A stretch of DNA of 64,000 nt from Actinomadura logoneensis (GTDB lineage Bacteria > Actinomycetota > Actinomycetes > Streptosporangiales > Streptosporangiaceae), in NCBI RefSeq assembly GCF_003428695.1, contig NZ_QURH01000316.1, positions 1 to 64,000 on the forward strand, given 5' to 3'. This document shows positions 1 through 16,366 of this stretch, piece by piece. The position numbers were made by a program, and so were the translations under genes. The notes under the pieces were generated by a model. The model made no database searches and was not told where the DNA came from. It saw only the letters and a program-made list of their open reading frames with translations. The stretch's first letter is position 1, and each line of letters opens with the position of its first letter.

Positions 1-753
1 CCGGTCGGCGGCGGCGAGCGCGGCGAGCACCGGGCGCGGCCCGCACGCGATGACCGCCACGTCCCGGCCCCGCCGCAGCCACTGGGCCCGGCCGATCTCG
101 AACGCGCCGCCGCCGACGTCCGGGGTGGCCTTGCGGCCGAGCCGGACGTACACGGGCCCGGGCAGCGCCGCGCTCTGCCGGACGGCCGCCTCGGCCTGGT
201 CGGCGTCGGCCGGGACGACCACGGTGAGACCGGGCAGGGCCCGCATGACGGCGAGGTCCTCCAGCGCGTGGTGGGTCGGCCCGAGGTGCCCGGCGGCCAG
301 CCCGCCGTGCGTCGCGACGATCCGGACGGGCAGCGCGTTGTAGACGATGTCGATCTTGATGGCCTCCAGGGCGCGCGTCGCGGCGAAGGTGGCCATGGTC
401 GTGACGAACGGGACCTTGCCGCTCGCCGCGAGCCCCGCCGCCGTGCCCATCAGGCTCTGCTCGGCGATGCCGAGGTTGAGGTAGCGGCCGGGGACGGCGG
501 CGAAGGCGTCCGGGTCGAACAGCCCGGTGTCGCTGTCCAGGCAGTACAGCCGCTCGTCGGCGAGCATCAGCTCCGGGAGCACGGCGCTGTACGCCTCGCG
601 CGCCGATCGCGGCCTCGGCTCGGCGCGTGGAGAAGCGCCCTGGCGCGAGGCGACCGGTGCGCCCGTTCCGGTGCCGGGTCGCGGCGCGTCCGCACGTTCT
701 TTCCCGCCCTCCTCTTGGACCGGGGTGGCGGGACGGCTCTCCTGCGCGGTCAT
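1..753 (-). CDS. Transketolase C-terminal subunit (partial, runs off left edge)
   Basis: Second half of a split, thiamine-diphosphate (TPP) transketolase, which moves a two-carbon ketol unit between sugar-like or keto substrates. 251 residues are visible and the reading frame is still open at base 1. The pyrimidine-binding domain is recognisable by GRYLNLGIAEQS (residues 89-100); the Glu of AEQ (E98) is the family's TPP-activating glutamate. ATHGGLAAGHLGPTHHALED follows as in transketolase and DXS relatives. The ATG at 753 overlaps the stop of the N-half gene in an ATGA, so the two halves are translationally coupled. Residues 1 to about 50 are an unusual Pro/Ala/Gly/Glu/Arg-rich stretch before the domain begins (REAYSAVLPELM). 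Split transketolases occur in secondary metabolism; the substrate here is unknown. Confidence 0.88.
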   Translation of the reverse strand, partial: MTAQESRPATPVQEEGGKERADAPRPGTGTGAPVASRQGASPRAEPRPRSAREAYSAVLPELMLADERLYCLDSDTGLFDPDAFAAVPGRYLNLGIAEQSLMGTAAGLAASGKVPFVTTMATFAATRALEAIKIDIVYNALPVRIVATHGGLAAGHLGPTHHALEDLAVMRALPGLTVVVPADADQAEAAVRQSAALPGPVYVRLGRKATPDVGGGAFEIGRAQWLRRGRDVAVIACGPRPVLAALAAADR

Positions 754-1556
754 GCGGTCGCCCTCCTGCGCCGGGCGCGCAGGACCGCCAGGGCGCGCTC
801 CGCCTGGCGTTCCTTCAACGTCGCGTAGTGGGAGTTCGGACGGCCCTCGATCGCCGGCAGCCCGCGCCCCTTGACCGTGTGCGCGATCACGACCGTCGGA
901 CGGCCCGGCTCGCCGGGCGCGAACGCCGTCCGGAGCGCGTCGGCGTCGTGGCCGTCGGCCTCGCGAACCGTCCAGCCGAAGCTGCGCCACCGGTCCGCGA
1001 GCGGTTCGAGGGCGACGGTGTCCTCGGTGGGGCCGGTGAGCTGCAGCCGGTTGCGGTCGATGACGGCCGTCAGGTTGCCCAGCCCGAGGGACGCCGACGT
1101 CATGGCCGCCTCCCACACCGAGCCCTCCTGCAACTCGCCGTCGCCCATGACCGCGAAGCACCGCCGGTCCGGGTCCGCGAGCGCGAAGCCGTTGGCGAGC
1201 GCGAGCCCGTGGCCGAGCGAGCCCGTCGGCATCTCCACTCCCGGCACCGCGCGCACCGGGTGCCCCATCAGGCGGCTGCCCGGCCGGGCGTACTCGGCGA
1301 GTTCGGCGACCGGGAAGAAGCCGCGCTCGGCGAGGACCGCGTACAGGCAGATCGCGCCGTGCCCCTTGCTGAGGACGAGCACGTCGCGGTCCGGCGCGCC
1401 GGGACGCTCCGGATCGACCCGCAGCACCTCGAAGTACAGGACGGTGAGGATCTCCACCAGCGACATCGACCCGCCCAGGTGGCCGCCCTCCGGCCCGGCG
1501 CACATGCCGACGATGTGCTCGCGCACCCGGTGCGCCGTCGCCGCGGGGTCCGTCAT
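750..1556 (-). CDS. Transketolase N-terminal subunit
   Basis: TPP-binding half of the split transketolase, 268 aa. It carries GGHLGGSMSLVEIL (24-37), SKGHGAICLYAVLAERGF (63-80), PTGSLGHGLALANG and the TPP/metal motif MGDGELQEGSVWEAA (137-151) closed by DRN (167-169). The chosen ATG (1556-1554) overlaps the stop of the shell-protein gene in an ATGA. A longer in-frame reading upstream exists but lies over that gene and is not credible. The protein should pair with the C-half just downstream to make the active site. Its place directly after the encapsulin-like gene makes it a first-choice candidate for shell-associated enzyme, which is inference only. Confidence 0.92.
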   Translation of the reverse strand: MTDPAATAHRVREHIVGMCAGPEGGHLGGSMSLVEILTVLYFEVLRVDPERPGAPDRDVLVLSKGHGAICLYAVLAERGFFPVAELAEYARPGSRLMGHPVRAVPGVEMPTGSLGHGLALANGFALADPDRRCFAVMGDGELQEGSVWEAAMTSASLGLGNLTAVIDRNRLQLTGPTEDTVALEPLADRWRSFGWTVREADGHDADALRTAFAPGEPGRPTVVIAHTVKGRGLPAIEGRPNSHYATLKERQAERALAVLRARRRRATA

Positions 1557-2389
1557 CGCCGGCCCGGCAGGGTGGTGAGGACGAAGTGGCCCGGCAGGTG
1601 GACGGCGAGCCCCTCGTGGATCTCGGCGACCAGCTCGTCCCCGGCCAGCCGGATCGTGGACGAGCGGCGGTCCAGCAGCGTCGCGGCGGCGGTGAAGTCG
1701 CCGACCAGCGCGGTGCCCGGCGGCACCATGCGGGTGCGGCTCACCTTGACGCCCTGCGCGGCCAGCCGCTCCAGGAACGCGCCGTCCTCCACCAGCGGCC
1801 ACCAGTCGTCGGGGTGCATGACGATCCCGTCGGCCGACCCGCCGTACCACTCGCACAGCGCGGCCGTCGCCAGCAGCGCCGAGGCGGCCGACCGGTCCGC
1901 GCCGTCCGGCTCGCGCCGCCGCACGCCCGGCGTCCGCAGCAGCCCGCGGATGTCCCCGGAGCCGTTGAGCAGCGCGTCGTTCTCGGCGGTGCCGAGCCGC
2001 ACGAGCAGCCGGTAGTCGACGAACGCGGCGAGCGCGGCCGGGTCGGCGAGGACCTCCGCCGGGACGGGCACCGCCGCCTGGACGGTCTGCGTCCGGACGG
2101 TCCGCGCGCCGACCTCGAACTCCCACTCGGGCGCGGCGTCGTCGGGGGCGACGTTCTCGGCGCGCTCGGTGAAGACGGTGACCTCGTCGGCGTCCACGAC
2201 CGCCTTGCGCAGCAGGTGCCGGACGGTCAGCCGGGGCCGCCGCTTGGCCGGCGGGAACAGGTCGCTGATGGACGCCCGCAGCCTGACCGCCGCCTTCGGC
2301 CCGTACCGGGCGTGGGCGAGCGCGAACTCCTCGCCGGGGCTGCGGTGGGTCAGTTCGGGATCGTCCAGCATCATGCGCACTTCGGACAA
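1553..2389 (-). CDS. Encapsulin-like HK97-fold shell protein (family 3 / natural-product type)
   Basis: 278 aa, the size of a one-domain encapsulin (about 260-285 aa) and shorter than cNMP-domain family 2 shells. HK97-capsid/encapsulin signs are ENDALLNGSGDIRGLL (136-151), DGIVMHPDDWWPLVEDGAFLE (188-208) and PPGTALVGDFTAAATLLDRR (224-242), then the strand-rich end AVHLPGHFVLTTLP; residues 65-105 fit an E-loop. No portal, protease, terminase or tail gene is nearby, so it is not a prophage piece. It sits in a metabolic operon with 3-nt spacing upstream and an ATGA overlap downstream. The TTG at 2389 is taken as start; ATG at 2374 or 2371 is possible. Family 3 encapsulins are known from surveys to lie inside biosynthetic clusters; assignment here rests on motifs, length and context, not on an alignment. 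Confidence 0.8.
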   Translation of the reverse strand: MSEVRMMLDDPELTHRSPGEEFALAHARYGPKAAVRLRASISDLFPPAKRRPRLTVRHLLRKAVVDADEVTVFTERAENVAPDDAAPEWEFEVGARTVRTQTVQAAVPVPAEVLADPAALAAFVDYRLLVRLGTAENDALLNGSGDIRGLLRTPGVRRREPDGADRSAASALLATAALCEWYGGSADGIVMHPDDWWPLVEDGAFLERLAAQGVKVSRTRMVPPGTALVGDFTAAATLLDRRSSTIRLAGDELVAEIHEGLAVHLPGHFVLTTLPGRR

Positions 2390-2392
2390 GGT

Positions 2393-3166
2393 TCACATCC
2401 CCAGGGAGCGGCCGCCGTCGACGACCTGGACGGTTCCGGTGACGAAGCTCGCGCGGGCGCTCAGCAGGAACGTTCCGACCGCGGCGACCTCCTCGGGACG
2501 GGCCACGCGGCCGAGCGGGATGCCCGCCTCCGCGGCGACCCGGGCGGTCTCCGCCCCGAGGTCGCCGGTGAGGCCGCCCAGCAGCGCGTCCGTGGCGGTG
2601 TAGCCGGGCGCCAGGACGTTGACGGTGACGTCCCCGGGCCCGAGTTCGTGGACGAGCGTCTTGGCGTACGCGGCCAGGCCCGACCGGGCGATCGCCGACA
2701 GCGCGAACTGCGGGATGATGTCGCGGATCGTCTCGCTGGCCACCATCAGGACCCGTCCCCACCCGGCCCGCCGCAGGTGCGGCAGCGCCGCCTGGACCAG
2801 CCCGATGTGGGCGATCATCCCCAGCTCGACCGCGTCGCGGAACCCGTCCGGGCCGAACGCGCCGGTCGGGCCGGCGGGCGGTCCGCCCGCGTTGCTGACC
2901 ACGATGTGCGCCGCGCCGTGCTCGGCGGCGGTGTCCTCCACCCAGGCTCGGGCGCCGTCGGTGTCGCGCAGGTCCAGGACGCGGGTGCCGACCACCGCGC
3001 CGAGGTCGGCGGCGATCTCGTCGCGGGCCTTGGCCAGCCGTCCGGCGTCGCGGCCCGCGATCGACACCGTGGCGCCCTCGCGGACCAGGTCCCGGGCGAT
3101 CGCGAGCCCGATGCCCGCCGAGCCGCCCGCGACCAGGGCCACCTTCCCGTCCAGTCCCAGATCCAT
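2393..3166 (-). CDS. Short-chain dehydrogenase/reductase with altered catalytic triad
   Basis: 257-aa classical SDR fold. The nucleotide site is AGGSAGIG (13-20) and NAGG (92-95) is present. The catalytic Ser is S144 (VASET), but the expected Tyr-x3-Lys reads S157-x3-R161 (FALSAIARSGLAAYAKTL). This pattern is known in a branch of SDRs related to 3-oxoacyl-ACP reductases (xLSNxxR types), so the gene is not obviously dead, but its chemistry may differ. One base separates it from the sulfotransferase upstream and 3 bases from the shell gene downstream. Likely substrate is an intermediate of this cluster, such as the hydroxyketone made by the transketolase (inference). Confidence 0.88.
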   Translation of the reverse strand: MDLGLDGKVALVAGGSAGIGLAIARDLVREGATVSIAGRDAGRLAKARDEIAADLGAVVGTRVLDLRDTDGARAWVEDTAAEHGAAHIVVSNAGGPPAGPTGAFGPDGFRDAVELGMIAHIGLVQAALPHLRRAGWGRVLMVASETIRDIIPQFALSAIARSGLAAYAKTLVHELGPGDVTVNVLAPGYTATDALLGGLTGDLGAETARVAAEAGIPLGRVARPEEVAAVGTFLLSARASFVTGTVQVVDGGRSLGM

Positions 3167-3167
3167 G

Positions 3168-4097
3168 TCAGACCCTCGTCTCGTAGCCGTACCGGCGCAG
3201 GAGCGGGAGCGCCAGGAGGGTGGTCGCGGCCCGCTGCGGACGCGGCAGGCCGGTGTGCCAGCGGCGGTCCTCCCGGATCACGGTGCGGCCCCGGCCGAAC
3301 CGGTTGGGGTTGCCGGTGACCGTGTGGTTGCCGCCGAGCTCGACCGTCCCGTCGGCGGCGACGGGGTTGGGGCCGGGGTGCCCGATCAGCCGGAGGATGT
3401 CGCCGACCGCGGCGCGCGGGCTGCGCACCAGGTCCTCGTAGCGCAGGTGCAGCGCGTCCGCCCGGTGGGCGCGTCCGACGGCCTCGGCCGCCAGGTTGAA
3501 CCCGGCCCAGTTCAGCGTGCTGTCGAGCGCGGAGCGGCGTCCGGTGTAGTCCTTGGGTTGCAGCCACGACCACGCCACCGCGCGCGGGTCGCGGATCAGG
3601 TGGACGTAGGACGCGTCGATCCCGGGCATCGCCGACAGCAGCGCCGCGTCGGAGGCGTACTTGGAGCTGTCCACGACGGTGTGCGCATCGCAGACCTCGG
3701 CGATCGCGCGGTAGGTCGCGGCGAGCGTGGCCGGCCAGCCGTCGCGCTGCCCACCGCGCTGCCCGTCTCGCGCGGCGTCGCGGGCCGAGGTGCGCAGCGT
3801 CCGCCAGGTGTGCCGGGTGCGGTTGGTGTCCTGCCAGGCGACGACCTGGGCGGCGTGCCGTTCGAGCGACACCCCGTCCGGCCGGACGGCCTCCAGGACC
3901 CGGGACCAGACCGGGCACTCGCGATGGTTCAGGCCGCATCCGCAGCGGGCGTTGCTGCCGGTGCCGAGCACCCCGTTGCGCCACAGGAAACGCAGCTCGC
4001 CGACATGGACCACGCCGGGCGCCTCGGCGAGGACGTTGCCCAGCACCGTGCTTCCGCTACGGCACCACCCGGTGATGTAGAGAACCTTCATCGGCAA
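3168..4097 (-). CDS. PAPS-dependent sulfotransferase
   Basis: About 309 aa, a cytosolic sulfotransferase-fold protein that would move a sulfuryl group from PAPS to a hydroxyl or amine. The 5'-phosphosulfate loop is YITGWCRSGSTVLG (7-20) and the 3'-phosphate motif is VHLIRDPRAVAWS (165-177). CGCG...RECPVW (52-64) is a Cys pattern common in bacterial relatives. The TTG at 4097 is preferred because GAGGGG lies 6 nt upstream; ATG at 4091 is the alternative. It is the first gene of the operon sulfotransferase-SDR-shell-transketolase. Surveys of family 3 encapsulin loci list sulfotransferases among partners (from memory). A sulfated product or a PAPS-activated leaving step are both possible. Confidence 0.9.
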   Translation of the reverse strand: MPMKVLYITGWCRSGSTVLGNVLAEAPGVVHVGELRFLWRNGVLGTGSNARCGCGLNHRECPVWSRVLEAVRPDGVSLERHAAQVVAWQDTNRTRHTWRTLRTSARDAARDGQRGGQRDGWPATLAATYRAIAEVCDAHTVVDSSKYASDAALLSAMPGIDASYVHLIRDPRAVAWSWLQPKDYTGRRSALDSTLNWAGFNLAAEAVGRAHRADALHLRYEDLVRSPRAAVGDILRLIGHPGPNPVAADGTVELGGNHTVTGNPNRFGRGRTVIREDRRWHTGLPRPQRAATTLLALPLLRRYGYETRV

Positions 4098-4414: not shown

Positions 4415-5461
4415 TCAGGCGTCCCAGCCCGGGTTCTCGGTGATCTCGACGGCGGCGCACACCCAGGCGAACCCGGCGCCGATCCCGACCAGCAGCACCC
4501 GGTCGCCCGGCCCGACCAGGCCGCTCTCGACCAGGTGCGTCAGCCCGGTGAGCTGGTCGGCCGCCCCGACGTGACCGGTGCGGCGGCCCCACTCCCAGGT
4601 GGTCCGCGACAGGTCCAGGCCGAACGGCTCGGCGTAGCGCGTCCGCAGCACGCGCAGGCCCACGTTCGGAAAGACGAACCGGGCGATGTCGTCCAGCTTC
4701 AGTCCGGCCTCGTCCAGCGTCCGCGCGACGGCCTCGGTGAGGCCCGAGGTGGTCCGGTCGGCGACGCTCCCCACCAGCGCGCGGGCGCGGGCGGCGAACG
4801 CGGCGCGGCGTGCCCGGACGTCCACCGGCCGTCCGGGGTGGACCGCGAACGGCTCGTCGCCCCGGTAGAGGCCCTCCAGCGCGGTGTCCACGACCGTCGA
4901 GACCGACAGCAGGCGGGCGAACCCCTCCTGGCCGAGCACCGCCGCCGCCGCGCCGTCCCCGTAGACCAGGCCGGGCAGGTCGGCGCGCCACCGGTCGAAG
5001 CCGGGCCCGCCGAACCGGTCGGCGGTGGTGACCAGCGCGCAGCGGCGGGACGGGTCGGCGGTCAGGTACGAGGCGGCCAGCTCCAGCGCGCCGAGCGCCC
5101 CCGCGCACATCTGCTGGACGTCGAGCGCGGGCGCGTGCCGTCCGTCCTCGCCGAGCACCTCGCGGTGGACGTACGAGGCCGCGGGCCAGTAGTCGATGCC
5201 CTGGAACCACGCCGACGCGTGCAGCAGCAACGCGACCTCGGACGGGGACCGCCCCGCTCGGCGCAGAGCCGCGCGGCCCGCGGCGACGGCCATCTCGGGT
5301 GGTGCCTCGCCGGTGCCGGCGGGGACGGCGGTGATGGCGGCGTACTCGTCGGAGGCCAGGTCGGACGGGTCGTAGCGGCCGTCCGCGACCGCCTCCGCCA
5401 CGTCCACGGCGGGCGGGAGGCGGTGGGCCAGACCGGCGAGGAACAGACCGTCGCAGCGCAT
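4415..5461 (-). CDS. KAS III-like acyltransferase
   Basis: 348 aa, thiolase fold of the ketoacyl-ACP synthase III family. The nucleophile is Cys119 in QQMCAGALGALE. The normal HQAN motif is replaced by FVFPNV (about 262-267), and the GNTSAAS position reads TGHVGAADQLTG, putting His297 there. The end has VLLVGIGAGFAWVCAAVEI. Such substitutions mark the DpsC/CerJ/CloN2-type KAS III relatives, several of which transfer acyl groups rather than condense with malonyl-ACP. ATG 5461 is chosen because GGAGG lies 5 nt upstream; GTG 5467 is possible. In clorobiocin-type pathways CloN2 of this family helps move pyrrole-2-carboxyl from carrier to acceptor, which fits the proline-to-pyrrole genes in this cluster (inference). 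Confidence 0.85.
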   Translation of the reverse strand: MRCDGLFLAGLAHRLPPAVDVAEAVADGRYDPSDLASDEYAAITAVPAGTGEAPPEMAVAAGRAALRRAGRSPSEVALLLHASAWFQGIDYWPAASYVHREVLGEDGRHAPALDVQQMCAGALGALELAASYLTADPSRRCALVTTADRFGGPGFDRWRADLPGLVYGDGAAAAVLGQEGFARLLSVSTVVDTALEGLYRGDEPFAVHPGRPVDVRARRAAFAARARALVGSVADRTTSGLTEAVARTLDEAGLKLDDIARFVFPNVGLRVLRTRYAEPFGLDLSRTTWEWGRRTGHVGAADQLTGLTHLVESGLVGPGDRVLLVGIGAGFAWVCAAVEITENPGWDA

Positions 5462-5470
5462 GAGCACCTC

Positions 5471-5560: not shown

Positions 5561-7894
5561 GTGGGCGACAGGGCACGTACGGTACGGCTTCCCGGCACCG
5601 ACTGGGCGGTCTGGGAGGACGCGGTCCTCCGGAGCACGGGGTTCCCCGCGGACGGGCTCGGCCTGTTCGCCGCCCCGGAATGCGCGTCCGCCGCCGACGC
5701 GTTCCTGGCCGGCCGCGGGAGCGAGGACGAGTTCGCACGGGCCCTCGACAGGGCCCTCGCCGACGCTTCGCGCGCCGCCCGGGAGATCGCCGCCGACCCC
5801 CTGTTCCGCGAGGCCCTGACCTGGCAGAACCCGGCCGCGGCCCGCCTGCTGGCGCGGCTCGCCGAGCCGGAACCGGGCGGCGGGATGACCGGAAAGGAAC
5901 TGCGCCGGGCGCGCCACAAGCGCCGCGCCCGGGAGAGCGCGGTCGTCCGCTACTGGCAGCGGTACTGCGGCAAGAACGACACCATCGGCTTCTTCGGGCC
6001 CGTGACCTGGACCAGGATCGTCCCCGAGACGGCCCCGGCGGTCGTCGCCCGGCCCGGCGCCGGACTCGTGCGGTCCCGCCGGATCGCCTACGAGTTCTGG
6101 GCGCTGGAGGCGTACGTCGAGGCGCTGCTCGCCGACCCGGTCGTCGCGCCGTGGCTGCCCGCGGGAATCCACCCGCACCTGGCCGTCCGGGACGGGCACG
6201 TCCTGCAGCCCGGCAAGGAGCCCGCACCCCTGGACGAGGCGGAGGCGGAGGTGCTGGCACGGTGCGACGGCGTCCGGCCGGTGGCCGAGATCGCCCCCGA
6301 CCCGCGGAGCCTCGCCGCGCTGGACCGGCTGGTGGACGACGGGATCGTCTGGCGCGGCGTGAACATGCCCTACAACGCGCGGGCCGAGAGCGTCCTGCGC
6401 GAGCACCTGGCCGCGATCCCCGATCCGGACGCCCGGGACCGGGCGCGGGCCGGACTCGACCGGCTCGACCGGGCGCGTGACACCGTCGGGGCCGCCGCCG
6501 GCGACCCCGACGCCCTGGCCGAGGCCCTGGACGGACTGGACGCCGAGTTCACGGCCGTGACGGGCGTCGAGCCCCGGCGGCGGGACGGGCAGATGTACGC
6601 GGGCCGCCGCGTCTGCTTCGAGGACACCGTCCGCGACCTGGACATCGAGTTCGGCCGCCCGGTCCTGGACGCCCTGGCGGGCCCCTTCGGGCACGTCCTG
6701 CTGCCCGCCGCGCGCTGGGTCTCGGCCGCCCTCGCCGACGCCTACGACGCCGCCTTCCGGGACCTGTACGCGCGGCTGCGGGAGCCGGGCGCGGACGGCG
6801 TGCCGATGCCGCGGTTCTGGGACGCCGTCCAGCCGCTGCTGACCGGCCCGGACCGTCCGGCGGACGCGGTGGCCGCCGAGTTCGCCCGCCGTTGGAACGA
6901 TCTCATCGGCCTCGCCCCCACTTCCGGTGACACCACCGGTGACACCGGCGGGCGCCGCCTGCACCTGCGCAGTGAGGACCTGCGGGAGCGGGCCGCCCAG
7001 TTGTTCCACACCGACCGTCCGGGCTGGGCCGCCGCCCGCATCCACAGCCCCGACCTGCACATCTGCGCCTCCAGCGTCGCCGCGCTGGAGGCGGGGGAGT
7101 TCACGCTGGTGCTCGGCGAGATGCACAACGCCTGGCCCACCCTCGACAGCGCCGTCTTCACCGACCGGCACCCCGACCCCGACAGCCTGCGCGAGGCCGC
7201 CGCCGACGACATCGGCCGCCAGTTCCGCCCCCTCTACCCGACCTGGTGGCCGCAGTACACCGCCCGCATCGCGCCCGTGCTCGGCGACACCGACCACCAG
7301 CTGGCGTTCACCGCCGCGCCCGGAGCCGACCCCGAGCGCGTCCTGCCGACCGTCACGCTCACCGTGACCGACCGCGGCGGAACCCTGGAGGCCACCGGCC
7401 CCGGCGGGCTCCGCCGCCCGCTGCGCGAGGTGTTCGCGCTGCTGTTCGGCTGGCTGGGGGCCGAGGCGTTCAAGCGCCTCGGCGCGGGCGCGCACCATCC
7501 CCGCGTCACCCTGGACCGCCTGGTCGTCGTCCGGGAGACCTGGCGCACGACCGTCGAAGGGACCGGGATCGCGCCGAAGACCGGCGCCGTCCCCGAGTAC
7601 ATTGCCGCCCGCCGCCTGCGCGCTTCCCTCGGGCTCCCGGAACGCGTCTTCGCCAAGGTCGGCACCGAGGTCAAGCCCGTCTACGTGGACTTCACCGGCC
7701 CCCGGTACGTGTCGTCGTTCGCGGCGATGGTCCGCGCCGCCCGCGACTCCTCCGGCGGCGACGTCCTGGTCACCTTCACCGAGTTGCTGCCGGGGCCCGA
7801 GGACGCGTGGCTGGAGGACGGCCGCGGACGGCGCTACTTCTCCGAGCTGCGCATGCAGATCCGCGACCCGCGCCGTCCCCGGCAAGCGACCTGA
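5561..7894 (+). CDS. LanB-type dehydratase N-terminal (glutamylation-domain) protein without elimination domain
   Basis: 777 aa resembling the tRNA-dependent glutamylation part of class I lanthipeptide dehydratases. Landmarks are YWQRYCGKNDTIGFFGPV (131-148), HSPDLHICASSVAALEAGEF, LVLGEMHNAWPTLDSAVF and, near the end, LGLPERVFAKVGTEVKPVY plus VDFTGPRYV. Full LanB enzymes are near 1,000 aa and add a C-terminal elimination domain, absent here. Stand-alone relatives include PEARLs, which use aminoacyl-tRNA to extend a carrier peptide. No precursor-peptide gene or cyclase is visible nearby, so the substrate might instead be a carrier-bound or small-molecule intermediate (inference). GTG start with GGAGG 5 nt upstream. 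It is followed by the adenylating ligase, probably co-transcribed. Confidence 0.82.
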   Translation: MGDRARTVRLPGTDWAVWEDAVLRSTGFPADGLGLFAAPECASAADAFLAGRGSEDEFARALDRALADASRAAREIAADPLFREALTWQNPAAARLLARLAEPEPGGGMTGKELRRARHKRRARESAVVRYWQRYCGKNDTIGFFGPVTWTRIVPETAPAVVARPGAGLVRSRRIAYEFWALEAYVEALLADPVVAPWLPAGIHPHLAVRDGHVLQPGKEPAPLDEAEAEVLARCDGVRPVAEIAPDPRSLAALDRLVDDGIVWRGVNMPYNARAESVLREHLAAIPDPDARDRARAGLDRLDRARDTVGAAAGDPDALAEALDGLDAEFTAVTGVEPRRRDGQMYAGRRVCFEDTVRDLDIEFGRPVLDALAGPFGHVLLPAARWVSAALADAYDAAFRDLYARLREPGADGVPMPRFWDAVQPLLTGPDRPADAVAAEFARRWNDLIGLAPTSGDTTGDTGGRRLHLRSEDLRERAAQLFHTDRPGWAAARIHSPDLHICASSVAALEAGEFTLVLGEMHNAWPTLDSAVFTDRHPDPDSLREAAADDIGRQFRPLYPTWWPQYTARIAPVLGDTDHQLAFTAAPGADPERVLPTVTLTVTDRGGTLEATGPGGLRRPLREVFALLFGWLGAEAFKRLGAGAHHPRVTLDRLVVVRETWRTTVEGTGIAPKTGAVPEYIAARRLRASLGLPERVFAKVGTEVKPVYVDFTGPRYVSSFAAMVRAARDSSGGDVLVTFTELLPGPEDAWLEDGRGRRYFSELRMQIRDPRRPRQAT

Positions 7895-7956
7895 CCCCCG
7901 TCCCCGCACGGCTCGACCCCACCGAGTTCTCACGAGCACAGAACGGGAGAGCAGAC

Positions 7957-9744
7957 ATGGCCGAGACCTCCGCGAGCCACCCCACCGTGAGCGACCCCAC
8001 CGTGAGCGACCCCACCGTGAGCGACCCCAACGTGAGCGACCCCAACGTGAGCGACCCCAACGTGAGCGACCCCAACGTGGGCGCCCCGTCCGCGGGCCAT
8101 CCCGCCGCGGGCTACCGCGCCGCCGGATGGTGGCGGGACGAGACCTTCCTCGACGACCTGCGCCGCCACGCCCGCGCCACGCCGCGCAAGACGGCCGTCG
8201 TCACCCGCCGCCAGGCGGACGGCACCACCCACCGCCTCGACTACGAGCAGCTGGCCGCCGCCACCGACCGCTGCGCCGCCGCCCTGGTGGAGCTCGGACT
8301 GCGGCCCGGGGACGTGCTGGCCGCGCAGCTCACCGACCGGTGGGAGCTCGCCGCGCTCACCCTCGCCTGTGTCCGCGCCGGGGTCGTGTACTGCCCGCTC
8401 ATGAAGACCTACCGGCGCCGCGAACTCGACATCATGCTGCGCGTCACCGAGGCCCGGGTGCTCATCACCATGGCGGAGGACAACGGCGACCGGCTGGGGG
8501 AGCTGGGCGCCGAGTTCGCCCGCGAGCTGGAGTCCCTGGAGCGCGTCTTCGTCGCCGACGGCCCCGGCCCGGACGGCACCGGCGAGTTCGAGTCGTTCTT
8601 CTTCGGGACGGCCTGGGAGGACCGGCACGGCCACCTGCTCGACGACCGCGAGCTCGGGCCCGACGACCCCTACCTCGTGCTGTTCACCTCGGGCACCACC
8701 AGCGAGCCCAAGGGCGTCCTGCACAGCCAGAACACGCTGTACGCGGCCGTCCGCGGCGAGGCCGACGCCTTCGGGCTGGACGACTCGCTCGTCATGTACA
8801 CCACCGCGCTCTACACCCACTACACCGGCGTGGTCCAGGGGATGCTGATGCCGCTGATGCTGGGCGGCACCATGGCGTTCCAGGACGCCAAGGACCCCGA
8901 CGACGCCCTGGACCTCATGGCGGCCCACGGCGTCACCTTCTTCTACTGCGCGCCGTTCTACCTGCTGAGCCTCATCCAGGCGCAGCGGAAGCGACCGCGC
9001 GAGCTGCCCGCGCTCACCTGGCTGGTCAGCGGGTCGGCGCCGATCCCGCCGTACTTCATCAGCGAGACCCGGGACGTCTTCGGCCTGCGCCTGTTCTCGC
9101 TGTGGGGGATGACCGAGAACGGCCCGGCCACGATCACCCGCCGCGACGATCCGGAGGACTGGGCGGCGCACAGCGACGGCAGCCCCATCGCGGACACCCG
9201 GCTGCGCATCGACCCGGTCTCGGACGACGCCGACGGCGCCGACGGCGAGGGCGTGCTGTGGATCAGCGGCCCGACCCAGTGCCTGGGCTACTACCGGCGG
9301 GACGACCTGTACGAGGCGGAGCTCGACGCGGACGGCTGGTTCAACACCGGCGACCTGGCCCGTCCCGACGGTCGCGGCGGCATCCGCATCACCGGACGCG
9401 CCAAGGACATGATCCTGCGCAACGCCAACATCGTGCCCGTCACCGACCTGGAGGCGATCGTCGGCAGGCACCCCGGGGTCGCCGAGGTCGCCGTCGTCGG
9501 CCTGCGCGACGAGCACGAGGACGAGACGATCTGCGCCGTCGTGCGCCCGGCCGTGCCCGGGCCGCCCGTCGTCCTGGAGGAGCTGCACCGGTCACTGGAC
9601 GCGGCCGGGATGACCAAGGCGTACTGGCCGCGCCGCCTGGAACTGGTCGACGACTTCCCGCGGACCGCCACCGGCAAGATCCGCAAGGCCGAGCTGCGGG
9701 AGCGCTACGCGCCGTCCGGCCCGCCGCGCCCCCACTCCGCCTGA
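7957..9744 (+). CDS. Adenylate-forming acyl/aryl-CoA ligase (ANL) with VSDP repeat N-terminus
   Basis: 595 aa. The ANL signatures are LFTSGTTSEPKGVLH (P-loop), SLWGMTENGPATI, NTGDLARPD, ITGRAKDMI and the C-terminal lysine motif PRTATGKIRKAEL. It should activate a carboxylate as an acyl-adenylate and pass it to CoA, a carrier thiol or an amine. The ATG at 7957 follows GGGAGA. Before the catalytic domain there are about 50 residues dominated by six VSDPT/VSDPN units (11-40), which look disordered and are not part of the ANL fold. Gene order suggests co-expression with the LanB-like gene 62 bp upstream. The substrate cannot be read from sequence by eye. Confidence 0.88.
   Translation: MAETSASHPTVSDPTVSDPTVSDPNVSDPNVSDPNVSDPNVGAPSAGHPAAGYRAAGWWRDETFLDDLRRHARATPRKTAVVTRRQADGTTHRLDYEQLAAATDRCAAALVELGLRPGDVLAAQLTDRWELAALTLACVRAGVVYCPLMKTYRRRELDIMLRVTEARVLITMAEDNGDRLGELGAEFARELESLERVFVADGPGPDGTGEFESFFFGTAWEDRHGHLLDDRELGPDDPYLVLFTSGTTSEPKGVLHSQNTLYAAVRGEADAFGLDDSLVMYTTALYTHYTGVVQGMLMPLMLGGTMAFQDAKDPDDALDLMAAHGVTFFYCAPFYLLSLIQAQRKRPRELPALTWLVSGSAPIPPYFISETRDVFGLRLFSLWGMTENGPATITRRDDPEDWAAHSDGSPIADTRLRIDPVSDDADGADGEGVLWISGPTQCLGYYRRDDLYEAELDADGWFNTGDLARPDGRGGIRITGRAKDMILRNANIVPVTDLEAIVGRHPGVAEVAVVGLRDEHEDETICAVVRPAVPGPPVVLEELHRSLDAAGMTKAYWPRRLELVDDFPRTATGKIRKAELRERYAPSGPPRPHSA
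7987..8076 (+). repeat. 15-bp tandem repeat encoding (VSDP[T/N])6
   Basis: Six in-register copies of GTGAGCGACCCCAMC, two ending ACC then four ending AAC, flanked by degenerate copies on each side (HPT before, VGAPS after). The near-perfect identity suggests recent slippage expansion. It lies in the N-terminal extension of the ANL ligase. Confidence 0.95.
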
Positions 9745-9856: not shown

Positions 9857-11680
9857 TCACGTCACCACACGGACCCCCGTGAGCCACTGGTTCAGTTCGA
9901 GGAGGTAGGACAGGCCGATCGCCGACGTCCGCGCGGTGATCGGCCCCGGCAGGGTGTCGAGGCCGGACGTGACCGCGGTCCGCACCTTCTCCCGGTCCAT
10001 GAGGTCGAACAGCGGCGCGCCCGGCTCCCCGACCAGGTCGAGGACGAGCCGCTGCAGGGACGCGACGTACCCCGGGTCCCGGCTGGCCGGGTAGGCGCTC
10101 TTGGGCCGGTTGACGACCTCCTCCGGCAGGAGGTCGGCGCACGCCCGCCGCAGCAGCGCCTTCTCCATCCCGCCCTCGGCCTTCAGCGCCGCCGGGACGT
10201 TGTACAGGTACTCGGCGAGGCGGTGGTCGGCGAACGGCACCCGCACCTCCAGGCCGACCGCCATGCTCATCCGGTCCTTGCGGTCGAGCAGCGCGCCCAG
10301 CCACCGGGTGAGGCCGAGGTGGAAGACCTCCCGCTCCCTGCGCCGGGCGGCGTCCTCGCCGTCCAGGTGCGGGACCTCGGCCAGCGCCTGCCGGTACCGC
10401 TCGGCCTCGTACTCCCGCGGCCGGACCTCCCGCCTGACCTCCTCTCGGAGCAGGCGTTCGGGCTGGTGCCTGCCGTACATCCACGGGAACGACGGATGCC
10501 GGACGAACCGCTCGTCGGTCTGCCACGCGTAGCCGCCGAACATCTCGTCGGCGGACTCGCCCGACAGGGCGACCGTGCACCGCTCCCGCACCCCGCGGAA
10601 CAGGTGGTACATCGAGGTGTCCAGGTCCCCCCAGCCGGGCAGGTCGCGCGCCCGCAGTCCGCGGTCGATCCCCTCGACGAGGCTGCCGGTGTCGACCTGC
10701 GTCACGAAGTGCTTGAGGCCGAGCCGTTCGGCGACGAGCTTCGCGTACGGCTCGTCCGGGCTGGGCCGCCAGGCGTCGCTCCCCGGACCGGCGGGCGCGG
10801 GGACGCTCACCGAGTGGCTGGTCAGCTCGCCCGCGAACTCCCGCGCGGCCATCGCCGTGATGGCGCTGGAGTCGATCCCGCCCGACAGCAGCGTCCCGAC
10901 CGGCACGTCCGCGACGAGCTGGCGGCGGACGATGTCGGTGAGCAGGGAGCGGACCCGGTCCGTCGTCGCGCCGAAGTCCTCGGTGTGGGGGCGGGCCTCC
11001 ACCTGCCAGTACCGCGTCTCCCGGAGGCCCGCGGCGTCGGCGACCACCAGGCAGCCCGGCCTCACCTCCCGCATCCCGCGGTAGACCGCGTGCCCGGGCG
11101 TCCGGGCGCGGGGGACGGCCATCAGCTCGGCGATCCCCTCGACGTCCACCTCGGCCGCCATCTCCGGATGCGCCAGGAGCGCCTTGGGCTCCGACCCGAA
11201 GACGACGCCGCCGCCCGGTTCCGCGTAGTAGAGGGGCTTGATGCCCAGCCGGTCCCGGACGAGCAGGAGCCGCTGCTCGTGCTCGTCCCAGAGGGCGAAG
11301 GCGAACATCCCGTTGAGCCGGTGGACGAAATCCCGCCCCCACTGCAGGTAGGCGACCAGCAGCACCTCGGTGTCGGAGCGGGTGGTGAACGACCAGCCCG
11401 CCGCCCCCAGCTCCGCCCGCAGCTCCCGGAAGTTGTAGATCTCCCCGCTGAAGGTGACGGCGACGGGCGCGCCGTGCCGTCCCGTCCGGGTCATGGGCTG
11501 CGCGCCGCCCTCGATGTCGATCACGGCGAGCCGCCGGTGCCCGAGCGCGGCGTGCTCGAAGAGCAGGACGCCCTCGGCGTCCGGGCCGCGCGGGCTCTGC
11601 GTCCGCGTCATGTCGGTGATGACGGGACGCTGCCGCCGCAGGTCCCGCGTCCAGTCGACCCATCCGGTGATGCCGCACAT
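9857..11680 (-). CDS. asnB: Asparagine synthase (glutamine-hydrolysing)
   Basis: 607 aa. It begins MCGITGWVDW, so Cys2 is the free N-terminal nucleophile of the class II glutaminase domain once Met is removed; RGPDAEG and FSGEIYNFRELR follow. The synthetase domain has the PP-loop LLSGGIDSSAI and ALSGESADEMFGGY. It makes an amide from a carboxylate using ATP and glutamine. The ATG at 11680 is set by the required MCG start and a GAGGA site. In a biosynthetic cluster AsnB homologues often amidate a pathway intermediate instead of, or as well as, aspartate. Its gene follows the esterase gene with an 86-bp gap in the minus-strand group with the proline-activation genes. Confidence 0.93.
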   Translation of the reverse strand: MCGITGWVDWTRDLRRQRPVITDMTRTQSPRGPDAEGVLLFEHAALGHRRLAVIDIEGGAQPMTRTGRHGAPVAVTFSGEIYNFRELRAELGAAGWSFTTRSDTEVLLVAYLQWGRDFVHRLNGMFAFALWDEHEQRLLLVRDRLGIKPLYYAEPGGGVVFGSEPKALLAHPEMAAEVDVEGIAELMAVPRARTPGHAVYRGMREVRPGCLVVADAAGLRETRYWQVEARPHTEDFGATTDRVRSLLTDIVRRQLVADVPVGTLLSGGIDSSAITAMAAREFAGELTSHSVSVPAPAGPGSDAWRPSPDEPYAKLVAERLGLKHFVTQVDTGSLVEGIDRGLRARDLPGWGDLDTSMYHLFRGVRERCTVALSGESADEMFGGYAWQTDERFVRHPSFPWMYGRHQPERLLREEVRREVRPREYEAERYRQALAEVPHLDGEDAARRREREVFHLGLTRWLGALLDRKDRMSMAVGLEVRVPFADHRLAEYLYNVPAALKAEGGMEKALLRRACADLLPEEVVNRPKSAYPASRDPGYVASLQRLVLDLVGEPGAPLFDLMDREKVRTAVTSGLDTLPGPITARTSAIGLSYLLELNQWLTGVRVVT

Positions 11681-11766: not shown

Positions 11767-12564
11767 TCACCCGTTGCGCAGGTGGCTTCGGGCGAAGGCG
11801 AACATCTGGGGGAGGCCCGCGTCGACGAACTCCCAGTCGTGGCCGCCGGACCGTTCCAGGTACCGGTGGGGGACGGAGCCGGCCGCGAGCGCGTCCCTCG
11901 TCCTGCGGTTCATGGAGATCATCCGTGGATGGTCGTCCAGGCCGATGTCGAGGTGGACCTGGAGCGGGTACGCCGTGTCGCGTTCGCGGATGAGGCGGTA
12001 GGGGTCGTACGCGCGCCGGACCTCGCCGCCGACCGGGCCCCACACCCGCTCGTGGTCCCGGACGGTCGGCATCGCCAGGTTCGGGTCGCCGCGGTGCGCC
12101 GCGTACGGGTCGCCCTCCCTGAACGGCGCCTCGAAGGCGCCGCTGCTGCTGCACACGACCGAGAACAGGCCGCCGTGCCGCAACGCCTGGAAGAGGGCGG
12201 CGGCCCCGCCCATGGAGAACCCGCCGATACCCCGTCCGCCACGCTCCGCCACGGTGTTGAACCGGGCGTCGACGTGTCCGACGACCTCGCCGACCAGGTA
12301 GTCCTCGTAGCGCCGCCCGCGCGCGTCGTTGATGAACCAGGAGCGCCCCGACTCGGGGAGCACCAGGACCAGCCGACCGGAGTCGACCAGGGCCGGCAGG
12401 TTCCCGCACCGCAGCCAGGTGGTGCGGTTCCCGCCGAAGCCGTGCAGCAGGTACAGCACCGGGAACGGCCTGCCGGACGGCGAGTAGCCCGGCGGCAGGA
12501 CGACGGTCACCGACTTCTCCCTGCCGATGGACGGACTCCACCAGCGCTCCGTCAGAACCTCCAT
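11767..12564 (-). CDS. Esterase D-type alpha/beta hydrolase
   Basis: 265 aa, PF00756-type putative esterase. LYLLHGFGGNRTTWL holds the oxyanion region, GFSMGGAAALF the Ser nucleophile elbow, LDIGLDDHP the acid region and SGGHDWEF the catalytic His. No signal peptide, so cytosolic. Only 11 bp separate it from the adenylation gene. It may hydrolyse or transfer an acyl group late in the pathway; CloN7 of clorobiocin clusters is also an alpha/beta hydrolase tied to pyrrole transfer, though I cannot say this is its orthologue. Confidence 0.88.
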   Translation of the reverse strand: MEVLTERWWSPSIGREKSVTVVLPPGYSPSGRPFPVLYLLHGFGGNRTTWLRCGNLPALVDSGRLVLVLPESGRSWFINDARGRRYEDYLVGEVVGHVDARFNTVAERGGRGIGGFSMGGAAALFQALRHGGLFSVVCSSSGAFEAPFREGDPYAAHRGDPNLAMPTVRDHERVWGPVGGEVRRAYDPYRLIRERDTAYPLQVHLDIGLDDHPRMISMNRRTRDALAAGSVPHRYLERSGGHDWEFVDAGLPQMFAFARSHLRNG

Positions 12565-12575
12565 CGCCGGGCCGC

Positions 12576-14177
12576 CTACGACCCGGCCAGCGCGCGCCGG
12601 TCGATCTTCCCGGTCCCGGTGCGGGGGAGCGCGGCGACCACGTGGAAGCGCTCCGGGACCATGTAGCGGGGAAGTTCGGCCAGGCAGTGCCTGCGTACCG
12701 GGGCGAGGTCGAGCGGCTGCTCCGCCGGGACGACGAACGCCTCGACGTGCCGCTCGTCCGGGCCGTCGCCGACCGCGACGCAGGCGACCTCCCGGACGTT
12801 GTCCGCGGCCGACAGGACCGACTCGATCTCGCCGATCTCGACCCGGTGCCCGCGGATCTTCACCATGTCGTCCTCGCGGCCGAGGAAGACGTGGTTCAGG
12901 TCGTCGTCCAGCATGACCAGGTCACCCGTCCGGTACGCGAGCAGCGGCCCCGCGCCGTCCCGGGGGATCGGCACCGTCCGGGACGCGGTGAGCCCGTCGT
13001 CCCGCCAGTAGCCGAGCATCACCGAGTCCCCCGCGACGCACAGCTCCCCGGTCCGCCCCGGCTCGGGGTCGAGCACGCGGCCGTCCGATCCGAGCAGGAA
13101 CGTCGCGGCGTACGGGCAGGGACGGCCGATCGGTACGGGCCGCCTCGCCTCGGGCGCGACGTCCTGCGGGCGGACGGGATGGAACAGGCAGACGTTCGTC
13201 TCGGTCGGCCCGTACAGGTTGTAGAGCGCCGCTCCGGGAACCAGCGCGTGGAGCTGCCGCAGGTGGGCGATCGGGAACGGCTCGCCCGCGAACAGGACGG
13301 CGCGCAGCGGCGATCCGGTCAGCAGTCCGCTGTTCTTCGCGGCCACCATCCGTGTCAGGGCGCCCGGAACCGAGTACCACACGGTGATGCGCCGGTCGGT
13401 GACGAACCTGTTGAGCGCGCCGCCGAGCCCGACCTGGCTCTCCGGAACCGGTACCACGCAGCCGCCTGCGGCACAGGTCGCGAAGAGGTCGAGGATGGAA
13501 AGGTCGAAGTGCAGTGGCGCGTGGCCGGATACCCGGTCCTCGGGGCACAGCCCGAACTCCTCGACCGCCCAGTCCACGAACGCCAGGGCGTTGCGGTGCG
13601 AGAGCGCCACCCCCTTCGGGGTGCCCTTCGAACCGGACGTGTGCAGGATGTAGGCCAGGCTGTTCGGATCGACGTCCGGCAGGCGGACGTCGTCGCCGAC
13701 GGAGGCGGCCACGGCGTCCCGCCAGGCGATGACCGGCCCACCCGCCTTCTGCGGTTCTTCGGCCGTGGGCCCCTGCGCGTCGTCGGGCTCCGGTTCCCTC
13801 GTGCCGATCGACACGATCGGACAGGAGCAGTGGTCGCGCAGCCACCCCACCCGGTCGTCCTGGGCGATCACGTAGGACACGCCGCAGCGCTCGATGATGT
13901 GGGCCGCCCGTTTGAACGGCGCGCTCGGATCGATCGGGACGTAGGCCGCGCCCGCCTTGAGGATGCCGTGGATCGCCACGACCGCCTCCGCCGACTTGGC
14001 CGCCCAGAGCGCCACCCTGTCCCCAGGGGCGACGCCGCCCCGGAGCAATGTCGCGGCGAGGGCCGAACTGCGCGCGTCGAGCTCGGCGTAGGTCGTCGAC
14101 CGGCCCTGGAACTCCACCGCCGGCGCGTCCGGCCGCTTCTCGGCCCAGTGCCGCAGGGCGTCGTTGAGCGCACTCAC
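12576..14177 (-). CDS. Stand-alone amino acid adenylation domain (probable L-prolyl-carrier ligase)
   Basis: 533 aa NRPS-type A domain with no condensation or carrier domain attached. Motifs: YAELDARSSALA (A2 region), YILHTSGSKGTPKGVALSH (A3), LHFDLSILDLF (A4, with the amino-group-binding Asp), NLYGPTETNV (A5), GELCVAGD (A6), YRTGDL (A7), GREDDMVKIRGHRVEIGEIE (A8) and PRTGTGKIDRR (A10). The HAPLHFDLS... stretch resembles prolyl ligases such as RedM and PltF. With the flavoprotein and carrier protein next door, the likely job is loading L-proline on the carrier. The start is GTG 14177, overlapping the flavoprotein stop (GTGA). Specificity is inferred from motif resemblance and neighbours. Confidence 0.88.
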   Translation of the reverse strand: MSALNDALRHWAEKRPDAPAVEFQGRSTTYAELDARSSALAATLLRGGVAPGDRVALWAAKSAEAVVAIHGILKAGAAYVPIDPSAPFKRAAHIIERCGVSYVIAQDDRVGWLRDHCSCPIVSIGTREPEPDDAQGPTAEEPQKAGGPVIAWRDAVAASVGDDVRLPDVDPNSLAYILHTSGSKGTPKGVALSHRNALAFVDWAVEEFGLCPEDRVSGHAPLHFDLSILDLFATCAAGGCVVPVPESQVGLGGALNRFVTDRRITVWYSVPGALTRMVAAKNSGLLTGSPLRAVLFAGEPFPIAHLRQLHALVPGAALYNLYGPTETNVCLFHPVRPQDVAPEARRPVPIGRPCPYAATFLLGSDGRVLDPEPGRTGELCVAGDSVMLGYWRDDGLTASRTVPIPRDGAGPLLAYRTGDLVMLDDDLNHVFLGREDDMVKIRGHRVEIGEIESVLSAADNVREVACVAVGDGPDERHVEAFVVPAEQPLDLAPVRRHCLAELPRYMVPERFHVVAALPRTGTGKIDRRALAGS

Positions 14178-15439
14178 CGCGCGCCCCCACTCGTCTCGGT
14201 GCGGGTATCACCGGGATACCGGGCGCCAGAAGCGGTGTCAGCGTCGGTGGCGGTGTCGGTGTCGGTGGTCTCGGTGTCGGGCCAGGTGATGCCGAGCTTT
14301 CCGGCGATGACCACCCGCTGCATGTCGGACGTCCCGGACGAGATGGTCATCCCGACGGCGTCCCGCAGATGGCGCTCGGTGTCGCCCTCGGAGGAGTAGC
14401 CGAGGGCTCCGTAGAGCTGCGTCAGGCCGGTGAAGACCTCCACGGCGGTCTCGCTCACGTACAGCTTCCCGGCCTCGGGGAAGATGGTCGCGGTGGGCGC
14501 CCGCCCGTCGCGGTCCAGCTCGGCGGCGGCACGGTAGAGGAGCATCCGCGCCAGCTCCCACCGGACCCGCATGTCCACCAGCCGGTTGGAGACCGACTGG
14601 AAGTGCCCGATATGCCTGCCGAACTGCCGCCGCCTGCGGCAGTGCCGCACGCACGCCTCGATCTCGCGCTCCATCACGCCGAGCCAGGGAGCCAGGAGAA
14701 GGGAACGTTCCCACGCCATCGTCTGGGCGAACACGGCCCCGCCCTGGCGCTCGGCGCCGAGCCGCCGGGACGCGGGGATCCGGCACCCGTCCAGCTCGAT
14801 CTCTCCCCAGCGGGCGGTGCGCAGCCCCATCTTCCCGGCCTGCTCCTTCACCGAGACCCCGACGTCCGCGCGCTCGACCAGGAACGCCGTCACGCCGGTG
14901 AAGCCCAGATGCCGCCCGACGGTCGCGTACACGACGAACAGGTCCGCGACCGGCGCGTTGGTGACGTAGAGCTTGCGGCCGGTCAGCCGGTAGAAGCCGC
15001 CGTCCCGGTCCGCGGTGGTGGCGAGCGACGACGCGTCCGACCCGCTGCCCGGCTCGGTCATCGCGTTCGCGCCGATCAGCCGGCCGGCGGCGAGCCCCGG
15101 CAGGTACGCGCGGCGCTGCCGCTCGTCGCCGAACTTCCAGATCGGGACCTCGGCGGCGAGGACGTGCGCGCCGATCGCCATCATCAGCCCGTTGTCCCGG
15201 CAGCCGCGGCCGAGGCCCTCCATCGCGCGGACGTGGTCGACGGCGCCGCGCCCGGCCCCGCCGTACTCCGGCGGCAGCATCAGCCCGAACAGCCCGCGCT
15301 CGGCGCAGGCGAGCCAGTCCTCGCGGCTGAACACCCCGGCCCGGTCGCGCTCGGCGACGTCCTTGCCGAGGGTCTCCTCGCCGAGCCTGCGGAAATCGCG
15401 GCCCAGTCCGTCCCGGTCGTCGTCCCATTCGAATCGCAT
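14174..15439 (-). CDS. Acyl-CoA-dehydrogenase-type flavoprotein (probable prolyl-carrier dehydrogenase)
   Basis: 421 aa. ACAD features: GLFGLMLPPEYGGAG, AMTEPGSGSDASSLAT, RQFGRHIGHFQSVSNRLVDM, LYGALGYSSEGD and the C-terminal SSGTSDMQRVVIAGKLG. The SCAD-position Glu (normally EGT) is Ser here, while WERSLLLAP supplies a Glu where isovaleryl-CoA dehydrogenase and PltE/RedW/CloN3-type enzymes keep their base. This fits FAD-dependent oxidation of prolyl-S-carrier to pyrrolyl-2-carboxyl-S-carrier. The ATG at 15439 is preceded by GGAGA. A 33-residue Thr/Asp/Gly-rich tail (389-421) extends past the normal end and looks disordered. It is first gene of the group running to AsnB. Confidence 0.88.
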   Translation of the reverse strand: MRFEWDDDRDGLGRDFRRLGEETLGKDVAERDRAGVFSREDWLACAERGLFGLMLPPEYGGAGRGAVDHVRAMEGLGRGCRDNGLMMAIGAHVLAAEVPIWKFGDERQRRAYLPGLAAGRLIGANAMTEPGSGSDASSLATTADRDGGFYRLTGRKLYVTNAPVADLFVVYATVGRHLGFTGVTAFLVERADVGVSVKEQAGKMGLRTARWGEIELDGCRIPASRRLGAERQGGAVFAQTMAWERSLLLAPWLGVMEREIEACVRHCRRRRQFGRHIGHFQSVSNRLVDMRVRWELARMLLYRAAAELDRDGRAPTATIFPEAGKLYVSETAVEVFTGLTQLYGALGYSSEGDTERHLRDAVGMTISSGTSDMQRVVIAGKLGITWPDTETTDTDTATDADTASGARYPGDTRTETSGGAR

Positions 15440-16080
15440 GGCTCTCCGTTCGGCCGAGCATAATGTCATGCGACATCAGGAACCGCGCGGGTTCCCGCAC
15501 GCTCGAAGACAGCGGATACGTCGAAAGAAATCCCCCGTGAGGTGCGGTTTCACATTGTCTCGGGCGGACGGTCTCAGGGTGGGGGAGCGGGGGCGGGGAA
15601 CGGAGTCCGGGAACTTCTCAAGCGGCTCGAAGTGACCGTTCCATCACTGTGTGGAATCGTCATGCTCCACCCCTCGGTTCGCGGCGGCCGGGCTACGGGA
15701 AAACAGGCAAAACCCTGTCCCGGCGGAACCGGCCGCTGCCCATTGTCCATGAGACATCCGATCTTGGAAAGGGCGGATCTGGGGCCGGTGGCCGCGCGGC
15801 GGACGGGCCGGGACGATCTCTTGCACGGCGCAGATCGCTGTCGTACGGTACCGACCGTCAACCAACCGCAGTGGTGAACACCGCAGTCCGAGCGCGGGTC
15901 CCGGCCGGCCCGCCGGCGGATCCGGGCTCCCCGGACGGGCGAGCCCCGCCGTCCCGTCCGGCGGCCCGGCGAACACGGCCGCCGGCGAACGCGTCCGATG
16001 TCCCGGATATCGATTTCCGTCCAGCCTCCCACTTCGCAAGGAAATTTCCCGCGACGAAGCCCGCAGAAGAGGTGCATGCT
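15440..16080. promoter_or_regulatory. Long divergent regulatory gap with two related palindromes
   Basis: 641 bp between the flavoprotein gene (-) and the carrier-protein gene (+), with no credible gene. Two similar dyads sit near the two ends: ATGTC-ATGC-GACAT at 15463-15476, 24 bp from the flavoprotein start, and TGTC-CATGA-GACA at 15744-15756 (followed by T). Both share the core TGTC..ATG..GACAT and could bind one regulator that controls both transcripts. Promoter hexamers were not assigned. Confidence 0.4.
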
Positions 16081-16365
16081 GTGGATCGTGCCAAGAACCT
16101 GGATCCGGCGGCGGAGATCAAGGACATTATGATCGGCGTGCTCGAATTGGGCGTCGACCGTTCGCTGCTCGACGATTCGGTCTCGCTCTACTCCCCGGTC
16201 GTGGGACTCGACTCGCTCAGCCTGCTGCACATCCTCGTGCGGATCGAGAAGAGATTCGACATCGAGATCGACGACGAGGACGTGATGTCGGCGGAGTTGA
16301 GCGACGTCGGCAGCCTCGTGGAAATGATCCGGCGGGCCGTCGAGGCGAAGGGCGTTGACGAATAA
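16081..16365 (+). CDS. Stand-alone acyl/peptidyl carrier protein
   Basis: 94 aa acidic carrier protein. The phosphopantetheine attachment Ser is in VVGLDSLSLLHI, followed by VRIEKRFDIEIDDEDVMSAE and SVGSL-type helix III (ELSDVGSLVEMI). The GTG at 16081 is chosen because GAAGAGG (16066-16072) lies 8 nt upstream and the domain starts right after; a longer in-frame upstream reading has no sensible content. It probably holds the prolyl and then pyrrolyl group (RedO/PltL/CloN5 role). The TrpB-like gene begins 1 bp after its stop. Confidence 0.9.
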   Translation: MDRAKNLDPAAEIKDIMIGVLELGVDRSLLDDSVSLYSPVVGLDSLSLLHILVRIEKRFDIEIDDEDVMSAELSDVGSLVEMIRRAVEAKGVDE

Positions 16366-16366
16366 C

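Follow-up and report, generated by a model that had tools for sequence, protein, structure and literature searches.

A family 3 encapsulin gene accompanied by a sulfotransferase and an atypical reductase in a biosynthetic cluster of Actinomadura logoneensis

The window analysed here, a stretch of 64,000 nucleotides of DNA from Actinomadura logoneensis (contig NZ_QURH01000316.1), harbors a family 3 encapsulin shell gene (ENC) within a biosynthetic operon, directly preceded by the genes of a sulfotransferase and an SDR. Comparison of related loci showed that these two enzyme functions are the constant partners of the shell gene. We see about an even chance that ENC is a putative shell around a reductase/sulfotransferase step making a reactive sulfate-activated amino acid, with the SDR and/or the sulfotransferase as the likeliest cargo. 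The features of the cluster, by position in the window, are as follows.

1..753, minus strand: transketolase C-terminal half (TKc), truncated where the contig ends (PF02779; ATG at 753-751)
750..1556, minus strand: transketolase N-terminal half (TKn; PF00456, E 2e-42)
1553..2389, minus strand: family 3 encapsulin shell protein (ENC), 278 aa, TTG start (NF041188, PF05065, HK97 gp5, AF2 model)
2393..3166, minus strand: SDR with Ser/Arg for the Tyr/Lys of YxxxK (PF13561)
3168..4097, minus strand: PAPS-type sulfotransferase (Sulfotransfer_3; PF13469)
4415..5467, minus strand: KAS III-like acyltransferase of the CerJ/DpsC/ChlB3 kind (PDB matches, E 1e-64 to 3e-79)
5561..7894, plus strand: stand-alone lantibiotic-dehydratase N-domain (LanB-N-like) protein (PF04738, E 6e-27)
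7957..9744, plus strand: acyl/aryl-AMP ligase (PF00501, E 4e-69)
9857..11680, minus strand: AsnB-type glutamine amidotransferase (PF00733, TIGR01536)
11767..12564, minus strand: esterase (PF00756)
12576..14177, minus strand: adenylation enzyme, probably an L-prolyl-carrier-protein ligase (PDB L-proline--[L-prolyl-carrier protein] ligase, E 7e-93)
14174..15469, minus strand: prolyl-carrier-protein dehydrogenase, pyrrole former (PDB prolyl-ACP dehydrogenase, E 1e-91; the PigA model NF053553 matches below its cut-off)
16081..16365, plus strand: acyl/peptidyl carrier protein (PF00550)
16355..17746, plus strand: TrpB-like PLP enzyme, probable right cluster edge (PF00291)

The profile NF041188 (family 3 encapsulin shell protein) matched ENC end to end with 300.3 bits (E 9.9e-90), the curated cut-off being 180 bits. 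PF05065 (Phage_capsid) was the sole Pfam match (E 8.6e-12), with none to PF04454 (Linocin_M18), and among PDB sequences HK97 gp5 was matched at E ~1e-9. The codon used as TTG start in the window is ATG in L003, L004, L008 and L012. An AF2 model built with 15 close homologues was weak (pLDDT 64, pTM 0.51), the E-loop and the N-terminal end being poorly modelled. Foldseek with this low-confidence model returned HK97 prohead chains as top matches (E 9e-10) and family 1 encapsulins below them, and VIA-align gave Z 9.1 for HK97 (218 residues, 7.4 Å rmsd) and Z 8.8 for the Pyrococcus shell. AziU2/AziU3, discussed below, were not among the matches listed in this fold search, which excludes nothing. 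When model and sequence evidence are taken together, the predicted HK97 fold of ENC can be considered safe. This is in agreement with an earlier note on this DNA, which had proposed a 278-aa HK97-fold protein at this position, without a strand, and had suggested a Foldseek search; the best matches, NF041188 and HK97, were not to the non-capsid fold that it had named as the refuting outcome.

ENC is single-copy in the A. logoneensis genome. Its reading frame is open and strongly constrained in 14 related loci (thirteen Actinomadura and one Streptosporangiales MAG; 73-92% identity). Mean amino-acid identity over 16 loci was 85%, exceeded among 12 cluster genes only by that of LysW, and purifying selection was strong over the whole length. 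Searches of the neighbourhood with Pfam, NCBIfam and PHROGs found no phage structural genes beside ENC, as the earlier note had held; among nine neighbourhood genes, a PHROGs capsid match was restricted to ENC, and the locus differs from phages, which have packaging genes. A scan of viral contigs with the family alignment confirmed no ENC relative, and a plasmid search gave one weak match only. Of 300 genomes sampled from the family, 54 encoded a family 3 encapsulin above the cut-off, compared with 9 of 395 sampled across the class; within Actinomadura the distribution was patchy.

Judged by its sequence, ENC is a real family 3 encapsulin, i.e., a protein of an already known kind. It belongs with the "natural product" encapsulins of the main text of Andreas and Giessen (2021, PMC8346489; NF041188), annotated Phage_capsid, and is a further case of that kind because both the family and its occurrence within biosynthetic clusters had already been described in 2021; the earlier note's placing of a family 3 encapsulin inside a biosynthetic operon is borne out on both counts. 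Family 1 encapsulins have the same fold in the structure search but fall into a different Pfam family (PF04454) and take up peroxidase/ferritin-like cargo via C-terminal tags.

On the minus strand, the genes follow the order KAS III-like, sulfotransferase, SDR, ENC, TKn, and TKc. A gap of 3 nt separates the SDR stop from the ENC start, and ATGA overlaps join the ENC stop to the TKn start and the TKn stop to the TKc start, consistent with the coupled operon, with ENC between SDR and split transketolase, that had been described from the letters. The operon is incomplete in the window because the contig begins at window base 1. In relatives, TKc is followed by LysW, LysX, LysY, LysZ, and a LysK-like M20 peptidase, positions that lie beyond the contig end here; their LysW is 55 aa long (PF21344) and ends in EDWGE. 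The KAS III-like gene, AMP ligase, sulfotransferase, SDR, ENC, transketolase, and Lys genes are near-constant in loci of the window type, many of which, though not all, also have the pyrrole module. The pyrrole, LanB-like, and TrpB-like genes noticed earlier were recovered through matches to the prolyl-carrier ligase, prolyl-ACP dehydrogenase, LanB-N, and PALP; the TrpB-like gene also forms the cluster edge in L047 and L050. The pairing of LanB-N-like and AMP ligase genes (5561-9744) is found again in another encapsulin class (L087, L090, L091), pointing to an amide-forming step, perhaps tRNA-dependent, in which both take part. The N-terminus of the AMP ligase (about 7960-8060) contains a run of short repeats (TVSDPTVSDPTVSDPNVSDPN...) missing in the relatives inspected. 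Just outside the cluster, 18766-19497 encodes a transposase-like helix-turn-helix joined to a MarR-type domain.

To count the partners of the shell gene, profiles were run against 67 encapsulin loci translated in all six frames; L054 and L093, cut right at the encapsulin, were excluded. A sulfotransferase was found in all 67 and a reductase in 66, the exception being L075, which has a sulfotransferase and no SDR; as the loci share ancestry, locus counts and Fisher values are descriptive only. The median distance from encapsulin to sulfotransferase was 1.7 kb. The association also held in the other direction: the best 52 matches of the window sulfotransferase in 300 genomes (at least 233 bits) lay within ~6 kb of an encapsulin, except for L127, in whose genome an orphan encapsulin stands where a contig begins. 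L127 is the remainder of the L054 cluster, on another contig, and carries its sulfotransferase. Below these 52, the next match scored 193 bits and the remainder at most 162. The sulfotransferase (3168-4097) had been missed in the earlier note's list of cluster genes; the transketolase of that list is present but not specific to encapsulin clusters. CysD/CysN-like sulfate-activation genes are added in L068 and its relatives. In L126 (G118), a distant sulfotransferase (39%) adjoins a distant split transketolase with no encapsulin, and it is a possible outgroup of the encapsulin sulfotransferases.

The two enzyme functions are met by different genes. An SDR with a Sulfotransfer_3 enzyme was present in 58 of the 67 loci and an aldo-keto reductase (AKR) with a Sulfotransfer_5 enzyme in eight (class C: L055, L072, L078, L079, L082, L084, L131, and L138). 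Since the enzymes exchanged are unrelated and serve the same function, the swap indicates that the function is kept and not the gene; it was not found in the main text of PMC8346489. The class C encapsulins are monophyletic, and their neighbours include a carboxylic-acid-reductase-like A-T-Red protein (Pfam on L055) and an FAD oxidoreductase. An N-terminal S-P-G-x-x-F helix of ENC is kept in nearly all classes and may be structural and not cargo-specific, because it also occurs in class C with its different enzymes. The encapsulin clusters of one Actinomadura class (L061, L064, L065, L075) additionally encode a complete glycyl-tRNA synthetase (alpha+beta fusion, 993-994 aa) and a LanM-like protein, perhaps for self-resistance or tRNA-dependent chemistry.

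Motif alignment showed that SxxxR replaces the catalytic YxxxK in every encapsulin-linked SDR. The same change occurs in the PDB relatives 1o5i, 2z1n, 5idx, and 5va8, which are annotated only generically. With the catalytic Tyr and Lys missing, the encapsulin-linked SDR is perhaps no ordinary carbonyl reductase, and the simple scheme in which the SDR makes a hydroxyl and the sulfotransferase sulfates it is therefore tentative.

Distance correlations separated two groups of genes. In the 18 loci carrying all genes, ENC and SDR were correlated with r = 0.98 (range 0.95-0.98), and both ENC-sulfotransferase and SDR-sulfotransferase with r = 0.97. TKn, TKc, LysX, and LysY were mutually correlated with r 0.98-0.99, whereas the values across the two groups were 0.73-0.78 for ENC and SDR and 0.79-0.83 for the sulfotransferase. 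Loci bearing a transketolase were not monophyletic in the ENC tree, nor were those bearing DegT, while those with AKR and Sulfotransfer_5 were. By the correlations and the tree, ENC, SDR, and sulfotransferase co-evolve as a single unit, which has been joined to different precursor modules.

The split transketolase is part of a LysW (amino-group carrier protein) module that is joined to the encapsulin in some clusters only. The LysW/transketolase cassette was present in 28 of the 67 encapsulin loci and missing from the region read in the other 39; conversely, 17 transketolase loci had no encapsulin (16 without L118, one of the four that also lack AziU3, which is the other half of a contig-split encapsulin cluster). 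AziU3 was found in none of the 28 loci with encapsulin and transketolase vs 13 of the 17 without encapsulin, and a DegT aminotransferase in none vs 16; all 13 AziU3 loci have DegT. Two loci were matched to AziU2/AziU3 in the PDB directly (AziU3, E 7e-71 and 1e-82; AziU2, E 6e-52) and the others by profile. LysW/transketolase loci thus carry either the encapsulin or AziU2/AziU3 with DegT, never both. Six of 16 AziU3 genomes also have an encapsulin at a different place, so the exclusion holds between gene clusters and not between genomes. The window, read over its first 40 kb, held neither AziU2/AziU3 nor DegT, and the best seven AziU3 candidates scored in its genome gave no match. The exclusion between encapsulin and AziU2/AziU3 was not found in the main text of PMC8346489. 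The cassettes of L116 and L123 have LysW, transketolase, and DegT with neither encapsulin nor AziU2/AziU3, carry three further genes (~823, 325, and 360 aa), and represent a third kind of AmCP cluster.

Among known systems, the azinomycin and vazabitide A clusters share the LysW/transketolase cassette and a sulfotransferase with the window type, but have AziU2/AziU3 and DegT without an encapsulin, the reverse of the window type. The transketolase and Lys genes that mark such AmCP clusters were found, the transketolase halves in the window and the Lys genes in relatives. The family 3 clusters of the main text of PMC8346489 resemble the window in having an SDR and a sulfotransferase, with the LysW-type carrier protein occurring in relatives of the window; that text does not name the transketolase or describe the pyrrole/CerJ-like/LanB-N combination. 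The suggestion that the cluster type may be new therefore stands at most for the pyrrole/transketolase combination, the AmCP and sulfotransferase/SDR types in PMC8346489 having been known since 2021. The only studied family 3 cluster, that of chloromyxamide from Myxococcus sp. MCy10608, likewise has a family 3 encapsulin, and chloromyxamide is, in the main text of that survey, the one product known from such a cluster; it contains 6-chloromethyl-5-methoxypipecolic acid (PMC8346489). Set against this product, the window cluster shows no evident halogen or O-methyl step.

A mechanism can be proposed on this basis. ENC would have been domesticated from a phage capsid and would form a functional unit with the two upstream genes, for the sulfotransferase and the atypical SDR. 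LysW would hold glutamate by its amino group, the glutamate would be reduced to the semialdehyde, the split transketolase would extend the LysW-bound semialdehyde by two carbons, and LysK would free a C7 amino-hydroxy-ketone. Without DegT, the C6 ketone would stay and the freed alpha-amine would close to a cyclic imine, leading to a 5-hydroxy-6-hydroxymethyl-pipecolate skeleton; by analogy, the pipecolic acid of chloromyxamide fits such a skeleton of glutamate plus C2 formed without DegT. Reductase and sulfotransferase would yield an O-sulfonated product, perhaps 5-hydroxy-6-sulfooxymethyl-pipecolate, with sulfate as the leaving group, and the shell would separate the electrophile and the displacement chemistry from the cytoplasm. 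The pyrrole-2-carboxyl module, the CerJ-like acyltransferase, and the AMP ligase would then acylate this product. Kurosawa et al. are said to have found in 2022 that AziU2/AziU3 perform aziridine closure. In the azinomycin pathway, a split transketolase also extends glutamate semialdehyde, an aminotransferase leads to DADH, and this is sulfated and the sulfate displaced to give the aziridine (PMC9570651). It is conceivable, and offered tentatively, that family 3 encapsulins in general are sulfation nanoreactors in which a sulfotransferase and a reductase produce a sulfate-activated electrophile, confinement dealing with the handling problem for which azinomycin-type pathways have AziU2/AziU3, the cage being kept when the enzymes were swapped for AKR and Sulfotransfer_5.

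Alternatively, the shell may house the reductase and sulfotransferase and sequester an aldehyde or ketone intermediate only, the sulfate staying on for self-protection, solubility, or export, which we consider rather unlikely. This is how Andreas and Giessen read the sulfotransferase/SDR pairs in the main text of their 2021 survey, where sulfate is part of the final product, against a leaving-group role (PMC8346489). The frequent MFS exporters in encapsulin clusters point the same way, and the constant sulfotransferase/reductase association fits equally well, but in the closest pathway studied that has the same LysW/transketolase cassette, sulfate serves as a leaving group (PMC9570651).

A search for a cargo-loading peptide found nothing common to the ends of the SDR, sulfotransferase, transketolase, KAS III-like, DegT, LanB-N, DAO, and methyltransferase proteins, and the SDR and sulfotransferase of the window type have no terminal extension. 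Two candidate tags were rejected: the TKc C-terminus ..DDPDLSRV, conserved because it overlaps the start of LysW, and the SDR start MDLGL, conserved as well, which is common to unrelated PDB SDRs, e.g., 2z1n and 5idx. SDRs of the DegT/methyltransferase class (L066-L095, e.g., L066 7670-8497) have a conserved C-terminal tail of ~20 aa ending ..KDTYT, missing elsewhere, which by its sequence is a possible cargo tag. The lack of a tag found in this search, and of a family 3 shell structure in the literature searched, would fit an ENC that no longer forms a closed shell and instead serves the sulfotransferase and SDR as a scaffold, a chaperone, or an open oligomer. This is unlikely, as the sequence matches a full-length HK97 fold nearly end to end, the whole of ENC is under strong purifying selection, and encapsulins of families 1 and 2 assemble.

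It is quite improbable that the downstream transketolase or LysW enzymes are the cargo: the ATGA coupling of ENC to TKn and the 28 loci with the cassette would agree with it, but the 39 encapsulin loci without cassette in the region read, the 17 cassette loci without encapsulin, and a distance correlation with ENC clearly below that of SDR and sulfotransferase argue against it. A leftover prophage capsid gene, to which a distant likeness to phage capsids (26-34% identity) might point, was rejected as having practically no chance, given the family 3 score above the curated cut-off, the lack of other phage genes found nearby, the same operon in 14 related contigs, and purifying selection.

The main text of the 2021 survey did not settle what family 3 encapsulins enclose and what they are for (PMC8346489), and a later answer was not found in the literature searched. 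If the shell always accompanies a sulfotransferase and a reductase, replacing AziU2/AziU3 and the aminotransferase in pathways that are otherwise shared, its purpose would become readily testable, with the AziU2/AziU3 clusters as a natural contrast set for the encapsulin clusters. The putative shell around the reductase/sulfotransferase step would then be, if true, an example of a virus capsid that has become a compartment in which a reactive natural product is made.
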